Shown: positions 38,799 through 41,474 of the stretch, in pieces
Layout: every line of letters starts with the position of its first letter
How positions within the stretch are numbered: the first letter of the stretch is position 1
NCBI GenBank assembly: GCA_002762985.1
Contig: PCXZ01000028.1
Coordinates: 10,278-51,751, forward strand
Length of the DNA: 41,474 bases
Source: Candidatus Woesearchaeota archaeon CG10_big_fil_rev_8_21_14_0_10_44_13
GTDB lineage: Archaea; Nanobdellota; Nanobdellia; Woesearchaeales; UBA12501
Direction: 5' to 3'
Program-made: the position numbers and the translations under genes
Notes under the pieces: model-generated
What the model was told of the DNA's origin: nothing
The model's input: the letters and a program-made list of their open reading frames with translations, nothing else
Database searches by the model: none

Positions 38799-38904
38799 CG
38801 GAAATAGAACGAATATGTCCCTATTCTATCTCCAGTTTAAGCAAGCCTTGGCATGAGCCAAAACCGGCTTATCTCTCGATAAGGATATATGGGTTTTGAT
38901 GTGG

Positions 38905-38912
38905 TTTATAAA
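38905..38912 (+). promoter_or_regulatory. Orphan TATA box before the structured element
   Basis: TTTATAAA with no gene start 27 nt downstream; the predicted start (about 38935) lies just before the inverted repeat at 38952. Confidence 0.4.
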
Positions 38913-38951
38913 GATTGCGGAATTAATCTGTTTGTTCTTTTTCATTCCATG

Positions 38952-39116
38952 GCGCACGCCACCATCATGGCGGCTCGACGGTCAAAACCTCGCAATGCTC
39001 GGTTTTGCCCTACTCGGGTTTCCCGTAGGGAGCAACGGAAAATTGCGATTTTCCTAGTTGCGCTCGCTTCGCTCGGCAACAACCCCTCCCTCGTCGAGCG
39101 CCATGGTGGCGTGCGC
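38952..39116 (+). repeat. Long imperfect inverted repeat enclosing four hairpins
   Basis: The arms are 38952-38979 and 39093-39116: an outer 14-bp perfect stem (GCGCACGCCACCAT with its complement), a 3-bp step, then a 7-bp perfect stem (GCTCGAC/GTCGAGC), with a 3-base and a 1-base bulge in the left arm. Four hairpins lie between the arms: 38983-39007 (7 bp, CAAAACC/GGTTTTG), 39008-39030 (CCCTA..CGGG/CCCGTAGGG, 9 bp with a 2-nt bulge), 39037-39054 (GGAAAAT/ATTTTCC with a TGCG loop) and 39057-39080 (GTTGC/GCAAC). A further stem, CGCGCC/GGCGCG, lies at 39116-39148. Confidence 0.85.
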
Positions 39117-39265
39117 GCGCCGGGGGTCGGCCCCTATGGGGTGGCGCGGAGGGCAAGCTTTTCGACTATTCAAAACAAAACAATCGGGGAGAAAAGTTGC
39201 CCGTCGCACCGCCACGAATGGCGCTATTATTCCCTTTTCTTAAAAATCCCTTTTCCCACAAAACC

Positions 39266-39273
39266 TTTAAATA
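39266..39273 (+). promoter_or_regulatory. TATA box, leaderless, DRG GTPase
   Basis: TTTAAATA, centred 27-28 nt before the ATG at 39297. Confidence 0.7.
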
Positions 39274-39296
39274 CCCTCGATTACAATTAAATCCCC

Positions 39297-40391
39297 ATGC
39301 CTGCATATGATGACAAGATAAAAGAGCTTGAAGAGCAGATCTCCAAGACGAAGTACAACAAGAAGACCCAGCATGCCATAGGCCTCTACAAGGCGCAGCT
39401 CGCAAGGCTGAAAGAGACACAGCTGAAAAGGAGCTCTGGCGGGAAAAAAGGGGAAGGTTATTCTGTAAAGAAGTCGGGCGATGCCACCGTGATATTGTGC
39501 GGCTTCCCTTCTGTGGGAAAATCTACTCTTCTCAATTCTCTTACAGGAACTGAATCAAGGGTCGGGGCATATGCTTTCACGACATTGACTGTCATCCCCG
39601 GCCTGCTTGAATACAAGCATGCGAAGATACAGGTCCTTGATGTCCCGGGCATCGTCCATGGCGCAGCTTCAGGCAGGGGCAGGGGGACAGAGGTCCTTGC
39701 AGTCATGAGGACTGCTGATCTTGCGATAGTCCTGATCGATGTGAACTATCCCGGCCACCTGAAAGTCCTTAAAAAAGAGATATATGAGGCTGGCTTAAGG
39801 CTGGATGAAAGGCTTCCTGATGTGAAGATAGTCAAGAAGTCTAGGGGCGGAGTGGACATCGCATCCACTGTCAAGCTGACTAAGACAGATTTCGATACTA
39901 TAAAGGATGTCCTGAGGGAATTCAGGATACATAATGCTGATGTTGTGATAAGGCAGGACATATCGATAGACCAGCTGATCGATGTCGTTGAGGCGAACAA
40001 GATCTACATCCCTTCGCTTGTTGTCCTGAACAAGATAGATATGGTGCCTGAGAAGAAGCTTGAGGAGCTGAAGAAGAACCTCAAGCCTGATGTCTGCGTC
40101 TCGGCAGAGGAGAAACTGAATATAGACGGGCTGAAAGATGCGATATTCTACAAGCTGAACTTCATAAGGGTATATACCAAAGAAGCAGGGAAGAAAGCCG
40201 ATATGGATGTCCCGATGATAATGAAAGGCGGCTCTACTATAAAGGATATGTGCGACAAGCTGCACCGCGACTTCGTTAACAAGTTCAGGTTCGCAAGGGT
40301 CTGGGGGAAATCAGCAAAGTTTCCTGGGCAGAAGTTCACCCTGAACCATAGGATCATGGATGGGGATGTTGTTGAGGTGCATTTGAGGTAG
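39297..40391 (+). CDS. DRG-family GTP-binding protein with TGS domain
   Basis: 364 aa, the standard size for archaeal DRG (developmentally regulated GTP-binding) proteins. An N-terminal helical region (residues 1-60) contains a KYNKKTQHAIGLYKAQLARL segment. The G1 motif is GFPSVGKST (69-77), the G3 motif is DVPG (115-118), the G4 motif is NKID (245-248) and the G5-like SA is at 269-270. A TGS domain spans about 287-364 and ends GDVVEVHLR. The family is ribosome-associated and helps translation under stress. A TATA box at 39266-39273, centred 27-28 nt before the ATG, predicts a leaderless transcript. Confidence 0.95.
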   Translation: MPAYDDKIKELEEQISKTKYNKKTQHAIGLYKAQLARLKETQLKRSSGGKKGEGYSVKKSGDATVILCGFPSVGKSTLLNSLTGTESRVGAYAFTTLTVIPGLLEYKHAKIQVLDVPGIVHGAASGRGRGTEVLAVMRTADLAIVLIDVNYPGHLKVLKKEIYEAGLRLDERLPDVKIVKKSRGGVDIASTVKLTKTDFDTIKDVLREFRIHNADVVIRQDISIDQLIDVVEANKIYIPSLVVLNKIDMVPEKKLEELKKNLKPDVCVSAEEKLNIDGLKDAIFYKLNFIRVYTKEAGKKADMDVPMIMKGGSTIKDMCDKLHRDFVNKFRFARVWGKSAKFPGQKFTLNHRIMDGDVVEVHLR

Positions 40392-40497: not shown

Positions 40498-40521
40498 TGA
40501 AAAATGGGTTTGATAGATAAA

Positions 40522-41187
40522 ATGCGACCAAAATATAATCCAACAATAGAAGATTGTATTGAAGCAATCATTGCCCGAGACAGAGGAATGCCCTATCCTG
40601 AGGTTTTGAAAACGTTTGAGCTTACTCCAAATAAATTTGCAAGAACAATCTCTATGGAATTAGGGAGCTATATCGCCCTTACATCAGGAGAAAGAAGAAA
40701 AATATTAGAAGGAATAATATCTGATCCTGAAAGAAGAAGAGAACTGTTCAATATGGGGGAGGAGTTTGTAAAAGAGCAGTATGATCGTATCCAGGGAAGG
40801 ATTCACAGGGAAAAACAATCACACTTTTATCATGGGACTCATTTTCATCCAAAAAATGTAGATGCACTTGTTTATTATGCCCTTACTTCTAATAATCCCT
40901 CCCTATCATCAAATTGCAGGAATGTGGTTATTGAAGGTATAAAGAATTTACCTCTGGATCTTGCTAAATATTTTATGAAAATAGGATTAAGGGGTTTGAT
41001 GAGCAACGAAATTGCTTGCAGGGGCAAGGCTGATTCACCTTTAGCTATATTAAAAATTTTTGATAAAGTTTACCGCCAAAAAACAGGGGATGCAAGTCTG
41101 TTTGATTTAAGCCAGAAAGAGCATCTGCACAGATGGGGTGATAATTTTATGGCTCCCTCTCTTACTGGCACGATAAAACCAATATAA
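40522..41187 (+). CDS. Unrecognised tandem-repeat protein, first repeat (frame breaks at about 41155-41162)
   Basis: The reading frame is open from an ATG at 40504, but the TATA box at 40490-40497 is 28-29 nt before the ATG at 40522, so a leaderless start at MRPKYNPTIEDC is more likely. Residues 1-90 include a possible helix-turn-helix (YPEVLKTFELTPNKFARTI). The next ~105 residues form a repeat from HFHPKNVDALVYYALTSNN to HRWGDNFMA. The frame then ends in a non-homologous LTGTIKPI tail. The sequence just after continues as a second repeat in another frame (see next entry), so the short tail is probably an artefact of a frameshift. The gene is AT-rich: 16 G/C in bases 40501-40560 against 25 in 39901-39960 of the GTPase gene. 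No known family is recognised. Confidence 0.6.
   Translation: MRPKYNPTIEDCIEAIIARDRGMPYPEVLKTFELTPNKFARTISMELGSYIALTSGERRKILEGIISDPERRRELFNMGEEFVKEQYDRIQGRIHREKQSHFYHGTHFHPKNVDALVYYALTSNNPSLSSNCRNVVIEGIKNLPLDLAKYFMKIGLRGLMSNEIACRGKADSPLAILKIFDKVYRQKTGDASLFDLSQKEHLHRWGDNFMAPSLTGTIKPI
41068..41154 (+). repeat. 87-bp perfect direct repeat, copy 1
   Basis: Identical base for base to 41388-41474, with a period of 320 bp. It encodes VYRQKTGDASLFDLSQKEHL followed by HRWGDNFMA. Flanking parts of the two repeats have diverged strongly. Confidence 0.95.
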
Positions 41188-41474
41188 GAGAAGCAGTTTA
41201 TCATATCTTAACTGAGAATAATACTGGATTAAGTTCTAGTGACAGGACAAAGGTTATCCAAACAATTAATAATTTTCCAACAAACTTAGCTGACTATTTT
41301 CACGGCATTCACATGCGTGGGCTTATGGCAAACTTCGAAAAAGGAAGGCAGAATTCCCCCTTGGAGGTATTGGAAGTTTTTGACGAGGTTTACCGCCAAA
41401 AAACAGGGGATGCAAGTCTGTTTGATTTAAGCCAGAAAGAGCATCTGCACAGATGGGGTGATAATTTTATGGCT
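41163..41474 (+). pseudogene. Second repeat of the same protein in a shifted frame (runs off the right edge)
   Basis: From 41163 a different frame is open for 104 codons to the window edge and encodes YWHDKTNIREAVYHILTENN ... LADYFHGIHMRGLMANF ... DEVYRQKTG ... HRWGDNFMA. It aligns throughout with the repeat encoded at about 40849-41154. There is no plausible start codon near its beginning. One missing base, or two extra, in the CT-rich stretch CCCTCTCTT (41155-41163) would join the two frames. This may be a true disruption, a programmed or slippage-prone site, or an assembly error. The last 29 codons visible are identical in DNA to the end of the first repeat. Confidence 0.6.
41388..41474 (+). 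repeat. 87-bp perfect direct repeat, copy 2 (may extend past the edge)
   Basis: Identical to 41068-41154. The window ends inside or at the end of the match, so the full length of identity is unknown. Confidence 0.95.

Follow-up and report, generated by a model that had tools for sequence, protein, structure and literature searches.

A dispersed, probably mobile palindromic DNA repeat with covarying stems in Woesearchaeales archaea

The window analyzed here, a stretch of 41,474 nucleotides from Candidatus Woesearchaeota archaeon CG10_big_fil_rev_8_21_14_0_10_44_13 (contig PCXZ01000028.1), contains a cluster of hairpins that is probably one copy of a non-autonomous, non-coding mobile palindromic DNA repeat, REPIN/MITE-like and mobilized in trans. 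This reading draws on a predicted structure, dispersal of the repeat, the plus-then-minus order of its units, covariation in its stems, presence or absence at two sites, and one 12-bp direct repeat. The family is an order-wide palindromic repeat in DPANN archaea; its general kind (REPIN/MITE-like) is known, and its unit and covariation are unusual. No description of the family was found in the open-licence literature, including the accessible parts of PMC3733652, PMC3116915, PMC9668308, PMC6006769 and PMC10969869.

The element in the window is an inverted doublet (38953-39230), in which two three-way-junction units of about 110 nucleotides have one 23-nt arm in common (Table 1). The first-pass annotation, made from the sequence alone, had placed it at 38947-39149 and described a 24-bp enclosing stem around four hairpins, followed by a fifth GC-rich stem. 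The enclosing stem and the four hairpins are present: the inverted-repeat search finds perfect 14-nt outer-stem arms, and the minimum-energy fold continues this stem inward with bulges to about 26 pairs, places four hairpins inside it and adds another GC-rich stem. That fifth stem also exists, but the right edge had been drawn too early, since the stem opens a second unit reaching 39230. The fold is better than that of dinucleotide shuffles (z = -3.3 as RNA and -5.0 as DNA; none of 200 shuffles equalled it in either case). The second half, when reversed, aligns with the first half and with the single copies L027 and L028, and is therefore a reverse-complement unit. The structure predicted for each unit is a bulged stem leading to a three-way junction with two hairpins.

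Table 1. Parts of the element in the window, with positions in the window
Feature	Position	Strand	Evidence
Unit A: outer stem, bulged second stem, variable H1, S3 hairpin, nested insert	38953..39116	+	covariance model 87.1 bits, E 1.3e-15; fold
Unit B: reverse-complement unit of the same family, H1 longer	39094..39230	-	covariance model 72.3 bits, E 1.6e-12; alignment with unit A, L027 and L028
Central arm, 23 nt, common to units A and B	39094..39116	.	overlap of both matches; same overlap in 26/33 doublets
Unit A outer stem S1, 5' arm	38952..38965	+	partner 39103-39116; inverted repeat, 100%
Unit A H1: stem CAAAACC/GGTTTTG, cap TC-GC-AAT-GC-TC	38983..39007	+	folds; stem covaries in 103 units
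Unit A S3, first part: CTCGGG...CCC-GTA-GGG hairpin	39013..39033	+	fold; columns 125-132 covary with 197-213
Unit A nested insert: hairpins 39037-39054 and 39057-39080 (cap CTCGCTTCGCTCG)	39034..39080	+	missing at the same place in L012, L016, L018, L019, L027, L028
Unit B H1: stem GGCAAGCTTTTC/GAGAAAAGTTGCC	39152..39202	-	fold

The copies read in the genome of the window (G000) share one skeleton, with modules of two kinds, the outer unit and an inner two-hairpin module, which is the nested insert of unit A. The outer unit is found without the inner module at the six loci given in Table 1, and a similar inner module is found without any unit at L014 and L017. The inner module lies inside the S3 hairpin loop of the unit in the window, L009, L010, L011 and L013, in S3 of the second, reversed unit in L015, and beside the unit in L026. 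The simplest reading is that the inner module would be a separate element nested in the outer unit. Two other palindromic families of this genome, F2 and F3, have the CTCRCTNCGYTCG hairpin cap in common with the unit and give no match to the unit model. A second dispersed palindromic family in G000 (L184, L188, L189, L190, L192 and L194) starts with TTTGCGGGGAAACCAAGGTTTCC, has the cap CTCACTTCGTTCG and consists of inverted halves, with three of the remaining five copies sharing 96-98.5% identity with L194 over 106-203 nt. At L185, L193 and L195 there is a third palindromic family (GGCTCTGTCCTAAAT...CTCGCTTCGCTCGGGTTAG).

The repeat is dispersed. BLAST yields 26 matches to 38900-39180 in the 1.5-Mb genome, in which the window lies on contig 23, and a covariance model of the unit, built from 18 units, identifies at least 25 units at at least 15 places, which is a lower bound because the sources were picked by earlier matches. 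Run over 73 sources, the model gives 109 matches, corresponding to 103 distinct units. When duplicates (L203, L204, L210 and L038) are excluded from the doublet, flanking-repeat, TATA-octamer and gene-context counts, there are 70 groups, comprising 33 doublets and 37 single units. All 33 doublets are oriented plus then minus, and the overlap is exactly the 23 nt of the common arm in 26. Copies within one genome diverge all along their stems. Among 287 genomes sampled from the order, 75 match the unit model and 212 do not at the threshold used, with per-genome unit counts being minimum values (at most 10-13 candidates were scored per genome). Matches were also obtained in 51 of 371 phylum-drawn genomes, a sample for which the number outside the order could not be told; all 51 are labelled as the same order or the same family. 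The exact pattern CCCTACTCGGCANCCCGNAGGG has no match in viral contigs, which, as one exact pattern, is a narrow test of a virus reservoir.

The first-pass annotation had expected many copies to support a mobile repeat and a single syntenic copy with compensatory changes to support an RNA; many copies and compensatory changes are found together. Among the 103 distinct units, which include related and therefore non-independent copies, 95.6% of 2,692 cells are paired, compared with 72.7% for shuffles and 35.5-42.6% for slid partners, and two-sided changes occur in 27 of the 28 pairs. The absolute pairing level leans toward the model because the alignment was fitted to that model; mutual information of column pairs, calculated from the same alignment with the structure unused, puts mostly the same pairs on top. 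In the S3 core, covariation links column 201 both to column 130 and to column 210. The commonest types at 201/210 are G-C (53), A-T (19) and C-A (11), and thus the second partner pairs in most sequences, and not in the C-A group. On the evidence of the alignment, the pattern at columns 130, 201 and 210 fits alternative hairpins in the S3 core.

An RNA under selection retains G·U on its own strand and avoids A·C. Over all pairs, the units have 65 G·T and 42 A·C in 2,692 cells. With three pairs left out for conflicting A/B register between doublet members, a choice made after the per-pair table was seen, the numbers are 24 G·T and 20 A·C in 2,391 cells. A control of 13 tRNA genes, some from unit-free genomes, has 25 G·T and 0 A·C among 273 pairs (P = 2e-5 for the G·T:A·C split, Fisher's exact test, cells not independent). 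The scarce and even-handed wobble is therefore more in keeping with a DNA palindrome than with an RNA. Contrary to full symmetry, it is the minus strand that has the more stable fold in 95 of the 103 units, by a mean of 5.3 kcal/mol, a strand bias that may lie in the loops. It is known that d(GCGAAGC)-type mini-hairpins and GNA loops are unusually stable in DNA. Many H1 caps read C-GA-GC-GNA-GC-GA-G on the minus strand, 21 of 36 such caps in the model-based set being TNC on the plus strand, and these cap loops may cause the better folding of the minus strand; the loop statistics are partly biased because the loci of G000 were retrieved with a pattern in which the first and last base of the loop are set. 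With stems that covary strongly and wobble that is rare and strand-balanced, the family offers a ready set of sequences on which to ask if stems can covary with no RNA involved, and covariation searches for RNA discovery could take such elements for RNAs.

Evidence for movement comes from G061 and G119, two genomes of one genus that are about 90% identical where compared. The orthologous site L233/L241 is filled in both, and its element is as well conserved as its flanks, so that some copies may have a host role. When six more G119 loci were queried in G061, L238 and L236 were empty, L234 and L239 had other sequence between the flanks, and L232 had no match. The sixth, the orthologous site L235 (G119)/L253 (G061), carries different units: one genome has a doublet, and the other has what seems to be a single unit whose arms differ. 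At L236, the 12-bp GCTTTCGGTTTT is found on both sides of the insert and as a single copy in the empty G061 site; the insert of L238 likewise has a repeat of 11-12 bp on either side (AATAAATTAAA / AATAAAATTAAA), less clear than that of L236, and a single copy of it is present in the corresponding empty site. Precise loss of the element is in principle another way to explain the two empty sites, which would then not show the state before insertion. Flanking repeats scoring at least 12 are found in 3 of 69 elements (0.18 expected from mismatched flanks), and those scoring at least 10 in 5 of 69 (1.05 expected); repeats of 12-15 bp flank L236, L071 and L250. The other 64 elements, the window copy among them, have no flanking repeat scoring at least 10, and so it is a few young copies that speak for target duplication. 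The window copy is presumably old. In L250, a 16-bp terminal inverted repeat (AGGGTGGGCAGTATTT / AGTGTGGGCAGTATTT) lies just inside the 15-bp direct repeat; this locus looks like another kind of transposon, or it could be that a unit has inserted into a different element there. In G252, collinear matching of the L250 query was limited to its left part and gave no empty site to back the direct repeat, and two more repeats of about 50 nt (L250:1463-1517 and L250:2971-3022) account for most of its 46 matches in that genome.

The window element lies in a divergent gap between a ribosomal protein S13/S15 gene upstream, on the other strand, and a GTPase gene downstream. The GTPase has MMR_HSR1, MMR_HSR1_Xtn and TGS domains, and its best matches in named genomes are in Candidatus Woesearchaeota MAGs. 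The TATA box that the first-pass annotation had seen upstream of the element was found (TTTATAAAG at 38905-38913), but its assignment to the element is refuted: TATA-like octamers aimed at the element occur in just 12 of 68 left flanks and 19 of 68 right flanks of the copies, and the box is thus a flanking feature. The TTTAAATA at 39266-39273, 24-31 nt upstream of the GTPase ATG, would be the promoter element of the GTPase gene itself. No unit adjoins the GTPase gene in any of the 53 related loci fetched by it, and one weak match lies elsewhere within L129. There was no S15 hit in these 53 loci, so there is no S15 synteny leading to orthologous intergenic regions. A single syntenic RNA gene is ruled out, as the repeat is dispersed and is absent upstream of the GTPase gene in the related loci read. 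With genes taken as open reading frames of at least 90 codons, 60 of the 70 copies could be classified (the other 10 are at an edge): 35 are between tandem, 21 between divergent and 4 between convergent genes, compared with 97, 48 and 28 background gaps in the same loci (P = 0.08 for convergent). Overlaps with frames (26 of 70 elements) are, in our judgement, mostly due to spurious frames. One copy, consisting of a unit and an inner module, is in frame in a U32 peptidase gene (G000:C6:14082-15500; L090:1583-3001) and adds about 55 residues inside the domain; the Pfam match takes 285 protein residues for 229 profile positions, and the element corresponds to residues ~212-264.

According to PMC3116915, REPINs lie dispersed between genes as inverted doublets made of imperfect palindromes, for which folding in single-stranded DNA is predicted. 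The family here resembles REPINs and BIMEs in being dispersed, intergenic and arranged as inverted doublets of imperfect, bulged palindromes (all two-unit groups). It differs in that the unit, built around a three-way junction and sharing an arm, measures about 110 nt instead of 20-40 (21-65) nt; in having neither GTAG nor CGTC at either foot in the consensus of 103 units; and in that the Y1 search found no RAYT gene flanked by units. Despite the resemblance, it is unlikely that the element is moved as single-stranded hairpin DNA by a Y1 (HUH) transposase, whether this is the IS200-type TnpA present in the genome or a RAYT-like relative that has been lost. Y1 hits are more common in genomes with units (42/75) than in those without (59/212; odds ratio 3.3, P = 2e-5, uncorrected for kinship, size and completeness), but 33 of the 75 unit-bearing genomes, and 9 of the 23 with at least 10 matches, have no Y1 hit. 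The single Y1 gene found in G000 by the PF01797 search (L061:3-449, interrupted by the contig edge) is of the IS200 type, with HVH and YIRDQ motifs recognized by eye, and the closest unit found lies at a distance of about 4.1 kb; for the Y1 gene of G014 this distance is about 22 kb. To our knowledge, IS200/IS605 insertion leaves no target duplication, so the duplication at L236, which also sets the family apart from REPINs, speaks against an IS200 mechanism. At three other contig ends in G000, L176, L180 and L186 have near-identical stretches resembling the 3' flank of the related G014 gene, which we took as the IS200 right end on account of this likeness; the assembly thus seems to break at an IS200-type insertion sequence. 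This right end was rejected as a cousin of the unit, with no match to the unit model at the IS200 loci and one weak extra match (17 nt in L195). Subclass 1.1, IS200 transposases included, is the only TnpA-Y1 subclass observed in Archaea according to the accessible part of PMC6006769. A MITE of a DDE transposase or of a casposon-like Cas1 integrase that reads terminal inverted repeats is a little easier to accept, and still rather doubtful. Casposon target duplications are about 12-15 bp, close to the flanking repeats of L236, L071 and L250, and the last has terminal inverted repeats as well. As far as the accessible text of PMC10969869 goes, prokaryotic MITEs are short, non-coding, multi-copy elements with inverted-repeat ends and flanking direct repeats in young copies. 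The family is likewise multi-copy, short and non-coding with inverted-repeat ends. The signs of a target-site duplication are clear at L236, for which there is an empty site, and strong in L250 and L071; most copies have none. Unlike in MITEs, the terminal sequences vary between copies, so that no single recognized end was found, and the PF01797 search, the only transposase search made, found no parent transposon with matching ends.

A host chromosomal element, such as a protein-binding, BIME-like cruciform that spreads mainly via template switching and recombination, would agree with arms that are well paired yet fast-changing, with the alternative partners in the S3 core and with the different subfamilies at L235/L253. 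We consider it decidedly unlikely in view of the many genomes of the order without a match and of the empty sites, one of which has a single copy of the flanking repeat. Least likely of all is a structured non-coding RNA family with many paralogues, although the strong covariation, the three-way junction with a bulged G and the excess of divergent over convergent positions would suit it. Wobble is nearly absent, with G·T not clearly above A·C; presence and absence vary between close genomes; within-genome copies differ throughout their stems; and TATA-like sites are inconsistent upstream of copies. Rfam has no match in the window at the gathering threshold or in 38850-39300 at E<=1, in agreement with the first-pass annotation, which had recognized no known RNA family. 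It had left the choice between a non-coding RNA and a mobile repeat; copy number, the empty sites and the 12-bp repeat back the latter, whereas the wobble leaves the RNA option weak.

If the family is a mobile DNA repeat, as we favor, an enzyme supplied in trans would make a staggered cut and insert copies, and it may read the folded shape of the DNA more than its sequence. One arm of a quasi-palindrome can be corrected against the other during replication. The arms may stay Watson-Crick perfect through such arm-against-arm correction, or because the DNA palindrome is selected. We tentatively suggest, as a possibility well short of probable, a class of archaeal mobile DNA recognized by folded shape and not by end sequence, with three-way-junction doublets, arms free in sequence yet Watson-Crick paired, alternative pairing in the S3 core and a non-RAYT enzyme that leaves duplications of about 12-15 bp.

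Two other systems have features in common with the family. Integron attC sites are imperfect palindromes with extrahelical bases, as are the units described here, but the latter form doublets, and a cassette array was not noticed around the copies in the stretches read. Integrons have been reported from archaea, Nanoarchaeota included (accessible text of PMC9668308). Rickettsia palindromic elements are palindromes of about 150 bp that enter genes in frame (accessible text of PMC10969869), which is comparable to the unit in the U32 peptidase gene, but most copies here look intergenic, and sequence and host are different. In addition, the window has a 122-nt direct repeat, 90% identical (41033-41154 and 41353-41474), where the contig ends, partly within and partly beyond the frame 40504-41187; it may stem from partial duplication of a gene or from an end effect of the assembly.
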